A DNA stretch of 64,000 bases from a bacterium (GTDB lineage Bacteria > CAIWAD01). Within the stretch, counting starts at the first letter, position 1; each line of letters begins with the position of its first letter. The DNA lies in contig JAUXWS010000059.1 of the NCBI GenBank assembly GCA_030685015.1, forward strand, positions 62,001 through 126,000. Reading direction: 5' to 3'. This document shows positions 1-51,532 of this stretch, in pieces. Under the pieces are notes generated by a model. The model did not search any database, had not been told where the DNA came from, and saw nothing but the letters and a program-made list of their open reading frames with translations. The translations under genes were made by a program, and so were the position numbers.

Positions 1-572
1 TCAGTTTCGTGGAGGCCACGCCGCGTTACGACCCGGCGGACAAGCTCGTCCTGCGCGTGGAGCTGACGGACTTCTCCGTGTACTACACCCAGGCCGGCCT
101 GGACGAGGTGACAAAGGAGCTGAAGGAGGGCAAGAGCCAGATCCTCTGCCACGAGGGCCAGCTCTGGAAGGTGGGCAAGAGCAAGGAGGGCGTCGTCACC
201 CGCGAGCGCCTCACCAAGCAGTGGACAGACTGGATCGACTACTGGGCCGTGGACTTCAACTACATGAGCCGCAAGGAGATCATCCAGGTGCGCAAGGACG
301 AGGGCGTGCAGGAGGAGAAGCCGCTGAACTCCTTGCTGGACGAGAGCGCGGTCGCCCCGCCCTTGCCCTTGGAGGACTTCGAAGAGCGCTGGACGGGCGG
401 CTACATCTTCGAGAACGAGTGGCAAAGCTTCCGCACCCGCCGCGAGCGCAACCTGGAGCTGGTCAGCGCCCCGCATCGCTACCACAAGCCCGGGCGCTAC
501 ACGCTGGCGGTCAAGGTCATCGACATCTTCGGCAACGACACCATGATCCTTGTGCCGGTCTCCGTCGGCTGA
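1..572 (+). CDS. Site-specific DNA methyltransferase, C-terminal part (5' end outside window)
   Basis: The reading frame is open from the first bases, so the start lies upstream of the window; 189 residues are visible. The C-terminus (PGRYTLAVKVIDIFGNDTM, then a short hydrophobic end) and the preceding WIDYWAVDF and FENEWQSFRT segments resemble the C-terminal region of large N4/N6-type DNA methylases of the type III-like class. No catalytic motif is visible because the DPPY and FxGxG regions would be upstream. It converges on the next gene with a 3-base gap. The family call rests on remembered similarity of the tail only; a restriction or helicase partner, if any, would be outside the window. 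Confidence 0.55.
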   Translation, partial: SFVEATPRYDPADKLVLRVELTDFSVYYTQAGLDEVTKELKEGKSQILCHEGQLWKVGKSKEGVVTRERLTKQWTDWIDYWAVDFNYMSRKEIIQVRKDEGVQEEKPLNSLLDESAVAPPLPLEDFEERWTGGYIFENEWQSFRTRRERNLELVSAPHRYHKPGRYTLAVKVIDIFGNDTMILVPVSVG

Positions 573-1440: not shown

Positions 1441-1670
1441 TCCGGCAAGATATGCCGACGCCGGCACTTTGCCGGGAACCCCGCCCGGGAATCAGCTTGT
1501 CGATCGGGTAAGGCGCGGAGGTCGTCCGGTGGCCGAGTCGCGCCCGGTCAGCGTGTCGCGGACACGGCCGGGGGGCCGAGGTTGGACAGAGAGGCCGCCC
1601 CTGTGGGCCATTGGCTGGCTGGACAATGATGGTGTGCGGCTCCATCACCGGAGATCGACTGTCGAACTTT

Positions 1671-1703
1671 TTGGACAGGTGTCCGACCCATGGTCGGACA
1701 CCT
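1671..1703. repeat. Perfect 12-bp inverted repeat, copy 2
   Basis: AGGTGTCCGACC (1677-1688) and GGTCGGACACCT (1692-1703) are exact reverse complements around the loop CAT. The left arm continues outwards into the TTGGACAGG shared with copy 1. The position is about 105 bases before the start of the secreted-protein gene. It could be a regulator-binding site or a small dispersed repeat; no U-tract follows, so it is not an evident terminator. Confidence 0.7.
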
Positions 1704-3531: not shown

Positions 3532-3732
3532 TACCCCCCCCGGCGGCGCAGACCACTCACCTCCTGGTGCGAGGTCCCGCCTGTCCAGTCTTGGAGCGGA
3601 AGCGGTGCGGGGCACGGGGGATGTGCCGAGTGTCATCCGCCACGACCTGTCGGCGTCTGCATCGAGCGGATGAATCTGGAGTGGCGGCAGGCCCGGTCCG
3701 GGATCAGGCCGCCGCCGAATGGAGAGAGGAGT

Positions 3733-7390: not shown

Positions 7391-9607
<2,217 letters not shown>

Positions 9608-9935: not shown

Positions 9936-9951
9936 GGCAAGGGCCGTGCCA
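9936..9951 (-). promoter_or_regulatory. Sigma54 (-24/-12) promoter for the katG unit
   Basis: Read leftward the sequence is TGGCAC-GGCCC-TTGCC, matching the TGGCAC-N5-TTGC core with exact spacing. The expected start is near 9925, thirty bases before the first ATG. The site is nearly palindromic (TTGGCA facing TGCCAG), so a weaker rightward copy (TGGCAA-GGGCC-GTGCC) overlaps it and could serve the divergent activator gene. Confidence 0.85.
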
Positions 9952-10095: not shown

Positions 10096-11643
10096 ATGTC
10101 AAGCAATGCCTTCCTCGATGACCTGCTGGACCTGGCCGGACAGCCCGAACGACTGGATGACGCCATCCATGCCGCCCTGGACGAGCTGGGCCGCCTGGTG
10201 CCCTATGATCTGGCCGCCTATTTCGAGTGGCGCCAGGAGGCCTTTCAGCCGCGGGTGCTGCGCGGTTCGCTGGCCGAAGCTGCCCGGGCCGCCGGCGGCG
10301 GCCGGGTGCTGGACCCGCGCGAGCTGCCCAGCATCGAGCGGGCCTTCGCCCGGGGCGGCCCCTGGGTGCTGAGCGAGGCCGAGCACGAGGCCGAGGGCGA
10401 TCCCTGGGACGGCGTGCTGGACCTGCCCCACGGCCACAGCTGCCTGCTGCTGCCTGTGCAGGCGGCGGGCGAGCGGCTGGGGCTGATCACGATGGATCGG
10501 CAGGCCTGCGGACCTTACGAGGATCCGGCGGTGGGCATCGCCGGCCTCACGGCCCGCATCCTGGCCCAGGCCGTGCTTTTCGCGCGGCAGGCGGCCCGCC
10601 TCCACGAGCTGAGCGCCCTGCTGGAGGAGAGGAACCGGTCCTACCGGGAATCCCGCACGGGGGAGTGCCATGCCGTGGCCTGGCTGGAGTCCTCCCGCTC
10701 CCCGGCCATGATCACCGTGCGTGAGCAGGCCCGTCAGGCCGCCGCGTCCGACGCGCCCGTCCTCATCAGCGGCGAGACGGGCAGCGGCAAGGAAGTCCTG
10801 GCCCGCGCCATCCACGAGTGGAGTCTGCGGCGGGGCCGGCCCTTCCTCGCCGTCAACTGCGCCGCCCTGCCATCACAGCTGGCGGAGAGTGAACTCTTCG
10901 GGCACGTGCGGGGCGCCTTCACCGGCGCCGTGCGCGACCGCCCCGGCCTCTTCGTCGCGGTGGAGGGAGGCACACTGCTCCTGGACGAGGTGGGGGACCT
11001 TCCGCTGGAGGTGCAGGCCAAGCTGCTGCGGGCCCTGCAGGAGCGCACCGTGACGCCGGTGGGGACCAGCGCGCCGCGGCCGGTTGATCTGCGCATCGTG
11101 GCCGCCTCCCACCTGGATCTGGCCGAGGCGGTGCGGGCCGGGCGATTCCGCGAGGACCTCTTCTTCCGCCTCCACGTGGTGCCCCTGCTGCTGCCTCCCC
11201 TGCGCGACAGGACGGAGGACCTGGAGCTGCTGGCGCGCACCATCCTGGCCGAGCTGGCGCGTGGCCGCGTGGCGCGCTGGCACCTGGCCCGCGACGTGCC
11301 GGACTGGCTGGCCGCCCAGCCCTGGCCGGGCAACATCCGCCAGTTGCGCAACGTGCTGGAACGGGCCACCATTTTCAGCGGCGACGGCTGGATCACGCGG
11401 AGGCTGCTGGAGGAGGGGGCGGGAGCCGCGGCATCGCCGCGGAAGCGATACCCGGGCCAGGACGAGGACATCCTGCCCACGCTGGAGAACTGGGAGCGGG
11501 ACTACATCGTCCGCGTCCTGGAGCGCTGCGGCGGCCGCGTCTACGGCCCCGGCGGCGCGGCGCAGGTGCTGGGCCTGAAGCCCACCACCCTGCAGAGCCG
11601 GATGAAGAAGCTGGGCCTGCGCCGCCGGCACCTAACCGATTGA
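10096..11643 (+). CDS. Sigma54-dependent activator, GAF-AAA+-Fis (FhlA-like)
   Basis: 515 residues. An N-terminal GAF-type sensor (about 5-165) is followed by a short coil and a complete enhancer-binding AAA+ domain: Walker A GETGSGKE at 226-233, ESELFGHVRGAFTGA with the sigma54-contacting GAFTGA loop at 273-278, and Walker B GGTLLLDEVGDL. The C-terminal Fis helix-turn-helix (GPGGAAQVLGLKPTTLQSRM) is of the FhlA type. There is no receiver domain, so the signal is probably a small molecule or oxidant sensed by GAF. It is divergent from katG with a sigma54 promoter and three palindromes between, making katG the likely target. It converges with, and overlaps by 12 bases, a broken metE-like gene. 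Confidence 0.9.
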   Translation: MSSNAFLDDLLDLAGQPERLDDAIHAALDELGRLVPYDLAAYFEWRQEAFQPRVLRGSLAEAARAAGGGRVLDPRELPSIERAFARGGPWVLSEAEHEAEGDPWDGVLDLPHGHSCLLLPVQAAGERLGLITMDRQACGPYEDPAVGIAGLTARILAQAVLFARQAARLHELSALLEERNRSYRESRTGECHAVAWLESSRSPAMITVREQARQAAASDAPVLISGETGSGKEVLARAIHEWSLRRGRPFLAVNCAALPSQLAESELFGHVRGAFTGAVRDRPGLFVAVEGGTLLLDEVGDLPLEVQAKLLRALQERTVTPVGTSAPRPVDLRIVAASHLDLAEAVRAGRFREDLFFRLHVVPLLLPPLRDRTEDLELLARTILAELARGRVARWHLARDVPDWLAAQPWPGNIRQLRNVLERATIFSGDGWITRRLLEEGAGAAASPRKRYPGQDEDILPTLENWERDYIVRVLERCGGRVYGPGGAAQVLGLKPTTLQSRMKKLGLRRRHLTD

Positions 11644-20166: not shown

Positions 20167-20182
20167 TGGCACGAAGATTGCT
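20167..20182 (+). promoter_or_regulatory. Sigma54 promoter of the first C25-type gene
   Basis: TGGCAC-GAAGA-TTGCT matches the consensus perfectly with exact spacing. The expected start is about 20193, giving a 24-base leader with AGAAAGG before the ATG at 20217. This position rules out the longer reading frame starting upstream at 20088 and supports the signal-peptide start. Confidence 0.85.
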
Positions 20183-43052: not shown

Positions 43053-43068
43053 TGGCACCGCCTTTGCT
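43053..43068 (+). promoter_or_regulatory. Sigma54 promoter of the second C25-type gene
   Basis: TGGCAC-CGCCT-TTGCT is a perfect core with exact spacing. The predicted start is about 43079, giving a 163-base leader before the ATG at 43242. AGAAGCCGGGTTCT, a near-palindrome about 40 bases upstream, is a possible activator site. Confidence 0.85.
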
Positions 43069-47207: not shown

Positions 47208-49745
47208 GTGCAAGTGGGCCACCTTCCCACAGAAGACTGGGCCGCAAGCCGGAACCCGTCGCCCGGGAAGGTCGATCCAGGCCCTGTCGCTCTTCTGGAG
47301 CTGCCCCGGCGCCGGCTCTTCATCTTCGGTGGCCTGTTCCGCCTGATGGCTATCAGCCTGCTGTGCATCGCCACCGTGGCCCTGCTGGCGGGAGCGCTGA
47401 TGGAGTTTGCGCTGTCCCCCGGGGTGGGCTGGCTGGCCAGGCCCTTTGACACGAGCACCCACTTCGGCAAGGTGGAGCTGGCCGAGCTGACCGGCGACGA
47501 CGGCCTGGACCGACTTCTCAACAGCGAGCCGCGGTCCTCCGAACCCCCCTCCCTCAAGATTGTCTCGACCACGCCGACGCAGGCCCGCCCGAACCGCCAG
47601 CTCTACCTGGCGGGCAAGGTCATGCTGGGGGGCGTCGTGACGGCCCGCGCGACCGATGGCAGCCGGTGGATCGCCGCCTTGTCCACCAGCGGCGACAGCA
47701 CGACGATCCTGCTCAACCTGTTCCGGGCCGACTCGACCGGGGAGAGCAAGCCCTTCTGGCAGGGCGTGCTGTTCTCCCCGGCCCACCACCCCCATTCCTG
47801 GCGGGATGTGCCGCGCCTGACCAGCATGCGCTTCCATCAGTCGGAAGGCCGCGGGTGCGCCCTGCTCTCCGTGGGCGCGGCCTTCCAGGGATGGCGGGGC
47901 GTGGTGCGGCTGGAATTGACATCCGGCGCCGTCACCGTGGAGCGCCACCCCTGCGGCCTGGAGATCCACTTTCCGCCAGGACCGTCCCTGGTGGATGAGG
48001 AGGGCCGGTCCTGGCTGGCCCTGAGCAGTTTCGCGCCCCACAACGGCAACGACCTGGGTGGCATCAACGACACATGCGCCGCCCTCCTGCTTTTCTCGCC
48101 GCACGACGGCCGCTTCCGCGTGATCGACACGGGCGATAAACACAATTCGCTTCAGGTCCAGGTCCTGCCCGACCAGCGGCATCTCGTCTTTCATTCGCGC
48201 CAGGAGATCAAGTTGCCGGATGGACGCCGCGGGCACGCCTTCCTTTTGGACAGCTGGGCGGAGCGGGTGCTGCGGACCTGGTGGATACCAACGCTGAAGG
48301 CCCTGTGGCTGGCCGGGGACGACCGGGAAGACAGGAGCGCCAGTCCTGCGCTGCATGGCCTGGCCGGGACCCGGGTGGTGGCGTTGGCGGCGGCGGATTC
48401 GGCCAGGACACTGTGGGAATGGCCGCCGGAATGGGCCTTGCCGTCCTACCGGGACGGCTGGCTGGTCGGCGACGAGGGGGCGGGGACCAGCAGGGTGATC
48501 AGCCTGGATGGCCGCCAGCGGGTCGTAGTGCGCTACGCCGGATCCGGCCACCTGCGCATGGAATCCCGCGGTTCCAGTCTGGACGACGCCCTGGCCCATG
48601 TGGTGCAGGGATCCTCCATCACTTCTTTCACCTTGCACGCCGTGCCGGTCTGGAGCCGCCTGCTGCGCAGCCCGGCCACGCGCCTGTCGGCCGAGGTGGC
48701 GGCTTTCTTCTTCCTGCTGCTGCTGGTTTTGCGCTTGCGCCGCCAGGACAACCTGCTGCGCGGCATCCTGGACGACAACTCCCAGCCGGTGGGGCTGCTG
48801 GATCCCCAAGGACGCCTCACCTTCGCCAACCAGGAGTTGCGTCGTCTGCTGACGGATCCACAGCAGGGACCCGCCTTGAGTACGCTGGCAAAACGCCTCC
48901 GTCCCGGTACCGGCGAGTTGCATCAATCGGGTGAGCGCTGGATGCGCTGGCTCCTGCGGCCCGTCCGCCCCGGCAGGCAGGAGGTGGGGAGCGTCATCTT
49001 CGGCATCGACGAAACGGCCCTGGTGGCCGCCGAGGACGGGCGCCGCTACCGGTCCCTGACCGGTCTGATCACCCACGAGCTGAAGACGCCCATCGCGCCC
49101 ATCGGCCTGGGCCTGGACCAGCTGCAGCGCGAGGTTGAGCGCGCCCTGCAACCCATGCCGGAGGGATTGCAGCGGATCATCGGCCGCATGCGGGCGGAGT
49201 TGGATCGCTTGCGCCAGTTGATCCGACACTTCACCGCCATCTCCGGCGAGCGCCGCCATCGGGAGAGAGTGGACCTGGTGGCGGCTCTGGCCGCGGGCGC
49301 CCGGCGCGCCGAATTGGCCGGCATGCCCGGAATCCAGTGCAGCTGGCACCTGCCCGACAAGGCGGAGGTGGTGGGCGACGCCGAAACCCTGGCCCTCGTC
49401 TTCGGCAGCCTGTTCAACAACGCCGTTGAAGCCATGGAGCACCGGGGCCGCCTGATGATCGGCCTGGTGCCGGCCAGCGACATGGCCACGAGCGGTTGGA
49501 CGATCTTCATCGAGGACACGGGGCGCGGCGTGCCCGCCGAGATCCGGCACCGCATCTGGGAGCCGGGCTTCAGTTCGAGGCGGGGGGGCTATGGCTACGG
49601 CCTCTACTTCGCCCGCCACCTGTTGCAGGACCTGGGCGGCCAGATCAGCCTCGACCCCTCGGCGGCGGGGGGCACCCTGGTCCGCATCGATCTGCCGCAG
49701 GCTCCCGCTGGGCTGGAGCCGTCGGACAAGCTGGAGGACGTCTGA
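47208..49745 (+). CDS. Membrane sensor histidine kinase
   Basis: 845 residues from the GTG at 47208; the true start could be up to 40 codons later, as no strong ribosome-binding site is seen. TM1 is LFRLMAISLLCIATVALLAG; a long extracytoplasmic beta-rich sensor follows (about 60-490, with propeller-like strands such as DGSRWIAALS, EEGRSWLALSS); TM2 is VAAFFFLLLLVLRL. A PAS-like segment (DDNSQPVGLLDPQGRLTFAN) precedes HisKA with the phospho-acceptor H623 in THELKTPIAPIG. The ATPase domain has the N box SLFNNAVEAME, G1 DTGRGV and G2 GYGYGLYFAR. It overlaps the NtrC-type regulator by one base and is its certain partner. Confidence 0.9.
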   Translation: MQVGHLPTEDWAASRNPSPGKVDPGPVALLELPRRRLFIFGGLFRLMAISLLCIATVALLAGALMEFALSPGVGWLARPFDTSTHFGKVELAELTGDDGLDRLLNSEPRSSEPPSLKIVSTTPTQARPNRQLYLAGKVMLGGVVTARATDGSRWIAALSTSGDSTTILLNLFRADSTGESKPFWQGVLFSPAHHPHSWRDVPRLTSMRFHQSEGRGCALLSVGAAFQGWRGVVRLELTSGAVTVERHPCGLEIHFPPGPSLVDEEGRSWLALSSFAPHNGNDLGGINDTCAALLLFSPHDGRFRVIDTGDKHNSLQVQVLPDQRHLVFHSRQEIKLPDGRRGHAFLLDSWAERVLRTWWIPTLKALWLAGDDREDRSASPALHGLAGTRVVALAAADSARTLWEWPPEWALPSYRDGWLVGDEGAGTSRVISLDGRQRVVVRYAGSGHLRMESRGSSLDDALAHVVQGSSITSFTLHAVPVWSRLLRSPATRLSAEVAAFFFLLLLVLRLRRQDNLLRGILDDNSQPVGLLDPQGRLTFANQELRRLLTDPQQGPALSTLAKRLRPGTGELHQSGERWMRWLLRPVRPGRQEVGSVIFGIDETALVAAEDGRRYRSLTGLITHELKTPIAPIGLGLDQLQREVERALQPMPEGLQRIIGRMRAELDRLRQLIRHFTAISGERRHRERVDLVAALAAGARRAELAGMPGIQCSWHLPDKAEVVGDAETLALVFGSLFNNAVEAMEHRGRLMIGLVPASDMATSGWTIFIEDTGRGVPAEIRHRIWEPGFSSRRGGYGYGLYFARHLLQDLGGQISLDPSAAGGTLVRIDLPQAPAGLEPSDKLEDV

Positions 49746-51157
49746 TGGGAGCGCCCCACATCCTGATCCTCGAGGACAACCGCAACGTGGCGGAGTCCTT
49801 GCGCGAGTCCCTCTGCAGTGAAGGCTACGTGGTGGGGCTCGCCCAGGATGCCGCCCAGGCCCGTCGCCAGACACAGGATCGGGTGCCCGATCTGCTGCTG
49901 CTGGACATCGGCCTGTCCGGCGCCCACCAAGGCGGCCTGGACTTCCTGCGTGAGCTGCGCCCGCGGGCGCCCCGCCTGCCGGTCGTGGTCGTTTCCGGCA
50001 AGGACACCACGGAGAACTTGCTGGAGGCCGGGCGTCTGGGCGTGGTCCAATTCCTCTCCAAAAGCGACCTGAACGAGACCATGCTGCTGGACACTGTGCG
50101 CAAGGCCCTTGATGCCGCCCGCCCGGACCCGGCCGACGAGCGGCGCGGGGTGGGTCGCCTGCTGGGGAGCAGTCTCCCCATGCGCCGGCTGCGTGAGCAG
50201 ATCCTGAACTACGCGCCGCTGGACATGCCGGTGATGATCTCGGGGGAGACGGGCAGCGGCAAGGAGCTGGTGGCCAAGGCGCTGCACGAGGAGGCTCCCG
50301 GCCGTGCCGACCGCCCCCTGACCATTGTCAACTGCGCCGCCATTCCTGAGTCCATCATCGAGAGCCACCTCTTCGGGCATCGCAAAGGGGCCTTCACCGG
50401 CGCCATCCACGACCACCCCGGCATCATCCAGCAGGCCGAAGGCAGCACCCTCTTCCTGGACGAGGTGGGCGAACTCAGCCACGACGCGCAGAAGCGCCTG
50501 CTCCGCTTCCTGGAATCCGGGGAGGTCCAGGCCGTGGGTCAAACAGACTACACCCATGTCCGGGCCCGGGTGGTGACGGCGAGCCATCAGAACCTGTCCC
50601 AACGGGCGCTGGAGGGGCGTTTCCGCCCCGACCTGAGATTCCGGCTGGACGTGCTGAAGCTGAACCTGCCTTCCCTCAGGGAGCGGCGGGAGGACGTGGA
50701 GGAACTGGCCCACGTCTTCCTGGATGCGGTCGCCCGGCGCAACAACCTGCCCACCAGGAGCTTGAGCCGGGCAGCCCTGGGTCTGCTGCAGGACCATGAC
50801 TGGCCGGGCAACGTGCGGGAGTTGCGCAATCTGATGGATGGCCTGCTGGCGGGTTCGCGCCACCCGGTGGTGGATGTGGACGAGATCCGTCCCCTCCTGT
50901 CCACCATCCACGACCATGGCCACGCCGGACCATGGGACGGAGCCTGGCCGGGCGGAGCATCCACGGACTCTGTTGGATTCCTCCCACAGAGCGTCGAGGA
51001 AATCCAACCCTTGCGCCAATGGCGGCAGGACATCCAGCGGGAGTACATCCAGCAAGTGCTGCGCCTCTGCCAGGGCAATGTTACACGATGTGCTGAATTG
51101 CTAGCGGTGGATCGCACAACTATATACGCATTAATCGGACAGAACCGTGATTCATGA
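49745..51157 (+). CDS. NtrC-family response regulator, sigma54 activator
   Basis: 470 residues, start overlapping the kinase stop (TGATG) with GGAGG upstream. Receiver domain about 1-125 with phospho-acceptor D54 in LLLLDIGLSG and Lys in FLSKSD. AAA+ domain about 145-380: Walker A GETGSGKE, ESHLFGHRKGAFTGA with GAFTGA at 215-220, and Walker B STLFLDEVGEL. C-terminal Fis-type helix-turn-helix (NVTRCAELLAVDRTTIYALI). It activates sigma54 promoters when phosphorylated. A perfect sigma54 promoter lies 47 bases past its stop, driving a candidate sRNA, and the same class precedes the C25 gene just upstream of the kinase. These are the most likely targets. Confidence 0.93.
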   Translation: MGAPHILILEDNRNVAESLRESLCSEGYVVGLAQDAAQARRQTQDRVPDLLLLDIGLSGAHQGGLDFLRELRPRAPRLPVVVVSGKDTTENLLEAGRLGVVQFLSKSDLNETMLLDTVRKALDAARPDPADERRGVGRLLGSSLPMRRLREQILNYAPLDMPVMISGETGSGKELVAKALHEEAPGRADRPLTIVNCAAIPESIIESHLFGHRKGAFTGAIHDHPGIIQQAEGSTLFLDEVGELSHDAQKRLLRFLESGEVQAVGQTDYTHVRARVVTASHQNLSQRALEGRFRPDLRFRLDVLKLNLPSLRERREDVEELAHVFLDAVARRNNLPTRSLSRAALGLLQDHDWPGNVRELRNLMDGLLAGSRHPVVDVDEIRPLLSTIHDHGHAGPWDGAWPGGASTDSVGFLPQSVEEIQPLRQWRQDIQREYIQQVLRLCQGNVTRCAELLAVDRTTIYALIGQNRDS

Positions 51158-51204
51158 AAGTAAGTCGGGTCAGAACAGGCTCGCAAGCTGCACAATCCAC
51201 GTCT

Positions 51205-51220
51205 TGGCACATGTTTTGCC
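51205..51220 (+). promoter_or_regulatory. Sigma54 promoter of a candidate small RNA
   Basis: TGGCAC-ATGTT-TTGCC has the full core and exact spacing. The -12 C at 51219 places the start at about 51231, exactly the first base of a hairpin in the downstream RNA. The surrounding TTGGCAC...TTTTGCCAA is close to palindromic. Confidence 0.85.
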
Positions 51221-51230
51221 AATAACAGCC

Positions 51231-51392
51231 CGTGGTCGGTTCCACCACGTCACCGCCCTGGCGCGGGCGGCAGGAAATGGCGTCGTCGCACTCGTCAGGT
51301 TGTGGGACTTGAACCGGGGGGCTGCAGCTCACACACTGCACGCAGTGGATGCGGCGACGCAGGTGGGGCGGACTTCTTGTCCGCCCCTTTTT
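51231..51392 (+). ncRNA. Candidate sigma54-dependent structured small RNA, about 162 nt
   Basis: Bounded by a perfect sigma54 promoter and a textbook intrinsic terminator, with no gene between. Hairpins by eye: CGTGGT/ACCACG (51231-51249); CCGCCC/GGGCGG (51253-51270); a long-range stem GCGTCGTCGC (51280-51289) with GCGGCGACGC (51351-51360), ten pairs with one G-U, enclosing a 61-base domain that includes CACTGC/GCAGTG; and the terminator. The only internal ATG (51277) opens an 11-codon frame with a poor ribosome-binding site. Placement beside an NtrC-type regulator parallels LuxO and the sigma54-dependent Qrr RNAs of Vibrio, though no sequence relation is claimed. Targets are unknown. Confidence 0.7.
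51365..51392 (+). terminator. Intrinsic terminator of the candidate sRNA
   Basis: GGGGCGGAC (51365-51373) and GTCCGCCCC (51379-51387) pair perfectly around TTCTT and are followed by TTTTT (51388-51392). It is the clearest rho-independent terminator in the window. It also ends any read-through from the response regulator gene before the convergent phosphatase gene. Confidence 0.92.
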
Positions 51393-51532
51393 GTGCCCTG
51401 GCCACATGATGTATGTGCATCCAGCCGCATTGCAGCAGCTGGGGGCAGGACCGAAGATCATGCACAGGCAGGGAGGGGAGGAGAGAAGCGACACCAGGTG
51501 GATGCGCCACAACGAAGGGTGGGCGCCCGGCT

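Follow-up and report, generated by a model that had tools for sequence, protein, structure and literature searches.

A predicted sigma54-dependent small RNA encoded next to a sensor kinase and an NtrC-type regulator in an uncultured bacterial lineage

The genome studied here contains an exact sigma54 promoter in the gap behind an NtrC-type response regulator gene, which raises the question of what the promoter transcribes. The window, the whole 64,000-nucleotide stretch of DNA that was analysed, corresponds to G000:C59:62001-126000, where G000 is the source genome. The best overall explanation is probably a free-standing noncoding RNA of about 160 nt, driven by the regulator and sigma54 and acting in trans. 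Judged from sequence, this RNA very likely represents a real, previously undescribed family of sigma54-dependent regulatory small RNAs, referred to as family A.

The regulator gene overlaps the stop codon of a sensor histidine kinase gene on the same strand, the start codon of which is uncertain (Table 1). The kinase can be divided into an N-terminal transmembrane segment, a large extracytoplasmic domain, a second transmembrane segment, and HisKA and HATPase domains, with the transmembrane segments assigned by eye. The extracytoplasmic domain is mostly beta and, with low confidence, propeller-like (structure model with a pLDDT of 52); Foldseek matches its model to propeller enzymes, and these matches point to no ligand. 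The 375-bp gap 3' of the regulator gene (51158-51532) contains no plausible gene, and all genes from 51533 to approximately 59500 are located on the - strand, so the promoter has no + strand gene to serve. The neighbour beyond the RNA is a phosphatase-like gene (by eye) in G000 and a flagellin gene (Pfam) in the same-genus genome G002. Because the neighbours past the RNA differ, the conserved syntenic unit consists of the kinase, the regulator, and the RNA. Two related loci have other arrangements. In G000:C76:1516-5488 (L233), a paralogous kinase and regulator pair, with 52% identity between the regulators, is followed by an IS30-type transposase gene (by eye) and no RNA gene. In the sister genus (L092 3739-7573(-), G003:C13), a related pair is followed by a sigma54-like promoter at 3653(-) and a gene for a secreted LamG-like protein (by eye), which indicates that the slot after the regulator can hold other content.

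The GG and GC elements of the promoter are 12 apart and lie at the 5' end of the RNA, as in sigma54 promoters. Matches to the exact pattern number four in the window, against 0.18 expected, and 23 in the whole G000 genome, against two for a reversed-pattern control; the genome-wide excess indicates that the sigma54 promoter signal is in use in the source organism. The other three exact promoters in the window, at 9937(-), 20167, and 43053, occupy usual sites; only the promoter at 51205 departs from this, as it serves no protein gene. The promoter at 9937-9951(-) precedes a katG-like catalase-peroxidase gene (7391-9586(-)), divergent from a gene for a GAF/AAA+/HTH activator (10096-11643(+); both by eye), and this locus is probably a sigma54-controlled peroxide response. 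The promoters at 20167-20181 and 43053-43067 are near the starts of two genes for large secreted proteins with features of C25 (gingipain-like) peptidases and C-terminal sorting tails; Pfam Peptidase_C25 was checked for the gene at 43053.

With the C of TTGC set at -12, the predicted transcription start is at approximately 51231, which is also where the 5' hairpin P1 begins, and a strong intrinsic terminator follows about 160 nt after the start. The terminator, the ORF check, and the lack of a + strand gene downstream point, at the sequence level, to a noncoding, discrete, terminated unit. The predicted RNA of G000 has a minimum free energy of -81.8 kcal/mol (z of -2.9 relative to dinucleotide shuffles), and the pair probabilities in P1-P3 range from 0.7 to 1.0. 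Hairpins P1 and P2 and a single-stranded linker precede the long-range stem P3, which encloses an inner domain with the core, also written TTGAACC(G)GGGGGGCTGCA. The arrangement of the inner part is provisional in G000, where hairpin P4 is not part of the minimum free energy structure and lies 3.8 kcal/mol above it. In G002, P4 is clear and holds the core in its loop. The initial annotation had described a perfect -24/-12 promoter, a start on the first hairpin, a perfect intrinsic terminator, and an RNA of about 162 nt in a gene-free gap beside a sensor kinase and sigma54 activator pair, all of which agree with our analysis. Its four stems are essentially right by fold, and its long-range stem is present with eleven rather than ten pairs.

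Table 1. Coordinates of the features of the family A locus in the window and of the family B and C loci. Evidence and remarks are given in the last column.
Feature	Position	Strand	Evidence and remarks
Membrane sensor histidine kinase gene	47208..49745	+	Pfam HisKA/HATPase_c; orthologs in G002 and G003, paralog in G000:C76
NtrC-type response regulator gene	49745..51157	+	Pfam, translation; receiver, Sigma54_activat AAA+, Fis-type HTH
Candidate upstream activating site, GTTGGATTCCTC-N12-GAGGAAATCCAAC	50972..51008	+	Interrupted inverted repeat, 37 bp, within the 3' end of the regulator coding sequence
Sigma54 -24/-12 promoter TGGCACATGTTTTGC	51205..51219	+	Exact TGGCACN5TTGC; G002 equivalent GGGCATACGTTTTGC
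Predicted small RNA, family A (~157-162 nt)	51231..51392	+	Promoter, terminator, fold, G002 ortholog L091:5510-5668
Hairpin P1, extreme 5' end	51231..51249	+	6/6 pairs with both bases changed in G002
Hairpin P2	51253..51270	+	5/6 pairs with both bases changed in G002
Single-stranded linker CAGGAAATG	51271..51279	+	CAGGGCATT in G002; CAGG in both; folds of both sequences
Long-range stem P3, encloses inner domain	51280..51360	+	11 pairs, 51280-51290 with 51350-51360
Near-invariant core TTGAACCGGGGGGCTGCA	51309..51326	+	G-run of 6 in G000, 7 in G002; local alignment 22/23
Intrinsic terminator and T-tract	51365..51392	+	9-bp stem (8 GC) at 51365-51387, then T5; equivalent in G002
Family B	L167(-) pos 957 (G000:C67:41542); L182(-) 998 (G001:C133); L154 1109 (G002:C163); L222 ~1465-1690(-) (G003:C11)		
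Family C	L055 1501-1665 (G000:C43:93221); L196(-) 1003 (G001:C288); L231 ~40-215(-) (G002:C52)		

The best same-genus ortholog of the regulator that has a kinase partner is located on contig C7 of G002. In the region downstream of it (L091), the promoter is followed by a hairpin that coincides with the predicted start, then by the core TGGAATTGAACCGGGGGGGCTGCAATTCC and by a terminator, the first arm of which, GGGCGGAC, is identical in the two genomes. The distance from the -12 element of the promoter to the core is 90 nt in G000 and 89 nt in G002, and that from the core to the terminator 56 and 55 nt, respectively. In both genomes, 133 nt separate +1 from the terminator, and the 3' arm of P3 begins at nt 120. 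Folded alone, each of the two sequences forms P1 at +1, P2, the CAGG linker, P3, inner hairpins, and the terminator. The initial annotation had named in advance, as one outcome that would count against it, relatives that fail to conserve the stems and the promoter; G002 retains the promoter, P1 at +1, P2, P3, the core, and the terminator behind the orthologous regulator gene.

The stem sequences of the two RNAs are almost wholly different, and the pairing is kept. Among 30 pairs compared in an alignment hand-built on the structure, with unalignable loop bases trimmed, 16 changed on both sides, four on one side, and three are broken; the main weakness of these counts is that they come from two sequences only, so the covariation amounts to one comparison. 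P3 contributes five pairs changed on both sides, three on one side, two unchanged, and one broken, whereas P4 is weaker, with four pairs unchanged, one changed on one side, and two broken. Helix positions set from G000 alone proved more stable in G002 than in 4000 dinucleotide shuffles, with p=0.003 for the summed energy, and none of the 4000 shuffled sequences contained all three helices together. When the pairing partners were shifted by 1-3 columns, the proportion of paired cells, as counted by the software, fell from 92% to 33-48%. Outside the core, sequence similarity by itself is weak (local score of 33, against 32 for the best of 500 shuffle pairs). MAFFT alignments made without structure placed the stems out of register, and the single-sequence covariance model R1 was too weak and misaligned G002. 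The two-sequence model R2 scored 113 and 87 bits at the two family A loci; as a covariance search built on relatives, also proposed in the initial annotation, it found exactly these two loci and nothing comparable elsewhere in 31 genomes, with no family A locus in G001, of the same genus, or in G003.

The interrupted inverted repeat that the regulator gene carries at its 3' end is a putative binding site of the regulator, located at -259..-223 from +1 in G000 and, as the same repeat, at -258..-222 in G002. Its palindromy exceeds the expectation for synonymous codons, obtained by redrawing codons with the protein fixed (p=0.0005 in G000 and 0.00075 in G002); the G002 value is the fairer one because the repeat was spotted post hoc. 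The pattern has one copy in G000 and one recognisable homologous site in G002, and none of its other matches within the genus (G001, G002) precedes a family A-like RNA. In the G002 assembly, the regulator gene (L091 4671-5450, G002:C7) contains an in-frame internal deletion that fuses the mid-receiver region directly to the final part of the AAA+ domain. The deletion removes most of the AAA+ domain and, if it is genuine decay and not an assembly error, would disable the regulator.

The arrangement of the locus points to the following mechanism. An extracytoplasmic signal would activate the kinase, and the phosphorylated NtrC-type regulator would bind the inverted repeat that lies approximately 220-260 bp upstream of the start, within the terminal coding part of its own gene. 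The bound regulator would enable RNA polymerase with sigma54 to fire from the promoter, and the predicted transcript would extend from P1 to the terminator. The RNA would then act in trans without Hfq, most likely with a stem-loop that exposes the G-rich core (AACCGGGGGGCUGCA) to target RNAs rich in C. The action in trans through the core, which is fixed whereas the stems change, is a guess, and the base-pairing mode and the targets are likewise guessed. The complement of the core, as a candidate target in cis, does not recur in the window at one mismatch.

No Rfam family matches the RNA interval at the gathering threshold. At E<=10, weak matches to SorY, SorX, and Xoo2 (E of 0.26-1) cover the 3' part including the terminator and are far below the gathering thresholds. 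A BLAST search of the interval in 60 genomes returned short chance matches only, and the best match in the source genome itself (G000:C15, E of 1e-4) was rejected as antisense within a coding gene. The exact core pattern has 19 matches in unrelated taxa among the genome contigs, about the chance number for 17 bases, and one match in the viral contigs.

The proteins that commonly mediate the action of small RNAs were searched for with Pfam models, and neither Hfq (PF17209) nor CsrA (PF02599) was found in the five lineage genomes G000-G004. As controls, E. coli, B. subtilis, Caulobacter, Thermotoga, and Methanocaldococcus gave Hfq matches, and three of 14 control genomes (E. coli, B. subtilis, and Thermotoga) gave CsrA matches. 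As the lineage assemblies are 67-98% complete, the joint absence is strong, not absolute, and, within the limits of sequence evidence, it rules out the modes of Qrr and CsrB. A sponge for CsrA of the CsrB/RsmZ type was rejected on the same result.

The main alternative to pairing through the core accepts a real, sigma54-driven RNA but lets it engage an RNA-binding protein, for which it would serve as decoy or activator; the core would then be the element that the protein recognises. Stems that are constrained in structure and free in sequence, combined with one fixed motif, fit a protein ligand equally well. There is also a precedent in GlmY, a sigma54-dependent decoy for RapZ that does not bind Hfq and is controlled by its own two-component system (PMC6075780). 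The commonest partner, CsrA, is however missing from the searches of G000-G004, and there is no candidate protein. A decoy of the GlmY kind accounts for the observations nearly as well as core pairing; we regard it as possible but on the unlikely side.

A further reading is a chance assembly, in which a sigma54 match arose by accident in a degenerate intergenic spacer and the terminator belongs to read-through from the regulator operon. The same terminator could also serve the kinase-regulator mRNA, and folding comes easily to a GC-rich spacer, as the modest z value reflects. However, the promoter, spacing, core, and paired positions are conserved in G002, and a promoter match was scarcely expected in the window, which makes such an origin very improbable. 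It is slightly harder still to reconcile the locus with a promoter that serves a small protein gene: short ORFs are present (11-26 codons in G000 and 11-31 in G002), but no ORF keeps its position, start, or frame between the two genomes, the double changes keep pairing, and the G-run, one base longer in G002, shifts the frame in the best-conserved stretch.

The preferred reading, a noncoding RNA acting in trans, gains from other RNAs in the lineage. When 126 sigma54 promoters from the five genomes were screened for those that lack an ORF and have a terminator no more than 330 nt away, two further conserved RNAs emerged, families B and C; both surpass family A in conservation, and neither matches an Rfam family. 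Family B is approximately 190 nt long, with 82-86% identity among three species and a recognisable member in G003; it has CCCCC-containing loops, and the two arms of an inverted repeat, CCCATTCG...CGAATGGG, flank its promoter. Family C, of approximately 150 nt, occurs in three species with the invariant stretch AACCCTCTCT...TAGCTGTGTGTGACGCGACA, and is convergent to an apparent electron-transfer flavoprotein gene (by eye). As one of several sigma54-driven RNAs, family A has a higher prior of being real. Four lone sigma54 promoters with a terminator within approximately 75-240 nt and no obvious gene (L052 1501, G003:C9; L178 2736, G001:C113; L046 1501, G001:C43; L145(-) 970, G004:C149) are possible further small RNAs. 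The complementary homopolymer runs of families A and B, conserved in both, could let A act as a sponge for B through pairing of the GGGGGG core with the CCCCC loops, but the best duplex energies, which leave out accessibility, are no better than those of shuffles (p of 0.99 in G000 and 0.81 in G002), and we consider a sponge highly improbable.

We tentatively propose, as a possible extension, that in an uncultured lineage where neither Hfq nor CsrA is detectable, sigma54-driven structured RNAs, families A, B, and C at the least, form a regulon that engages its targets in its own manner. Within it, one two-component system, with its binding site buried in the regulator gene, would have family A as its dedicated output. 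The well-studied sigma54-dependent small RNAs, Qrr, GlmY, CrcZ, and NrsZ, come from gammaproteobacteria. The presence of several unrelated families in an uncultured lineage far from these suggests more than one origin for the wiring of sensor kinase, NtrC-type activator, sigma54, and structured RNA, and suggests that this wiring can function in organisms with no detectable Hfq. The promoter, three covarying stems, and G-rich core now make a concrete search model for metatranscriptomes.

Four known systems share parts of this wiring. CrcZ of Pseudomonas is approximately 400 nt long and sequesters Hfq/Crc through A-rich repeats, whereas the family A RNA is approximately 160 nt long and highly structured, with a G-rich core, no Hfq found in its lineage, and no Rfam match. 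The gene crcZ is located immediately downstream of cbrB and is transcribed from an RpoN promoter (PMC10562864). The CbrA/CbrB-CrcZ locus thus has the gene order of the family A locus, also present in G002: a kinase gene, an NtrC-type regulator gene, and a sigma54-promoted small RNA gene. In Enterobacteriaceae, glmY is located immediately upstream of qseEGF, and QseF binds TGTN12ACA sites and fires the sigma54 promoter of glmY (PMC6075780). The QseE/QseF (GlrK/GlrR)-GlmY system therefore resembles family A as a sigma54-dependent small RNA beside a two-component system that acts through inverted-repeat sites. It differs in that GlmY is encoded upstream of the operon and is a RapZ decoy, whereas the family A RNA is encoded downstream, with its candidate site within the regulator gene; the Rfam models of GlmY and GlmZ do not match the family A RNA. 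NrsZ of Pseudomonas, a small RNA controlled by sigma54 and NtrC and adjoining ntrC, shares the type of control and the position beside the regulator gene, but has no Rfam-level similarity to family A. Qrr RNAs of Vibrio are approximately 100 nt long, Hfq-dependent, and often multicopy. An NtrC-type regulator adjacent to a sigma54-promoted RNA with several stem-loops recalls LuxO-Qrr, but the family A RNA is longer and present in one copy, Hfq was not found in the five genomes, and Qrr (RF00195) gave no match at the gathering threshold or at E<=10, so membership among these Hfq-dependent, base-pairing outputs of quorum sensing is largely refuted and barely credible. LuxO-Qrr had been named as the closest parallel in the initial annotation; in layout, CbrAB-CrcZ and QseEF-GlmY are nearer to the family A locus.
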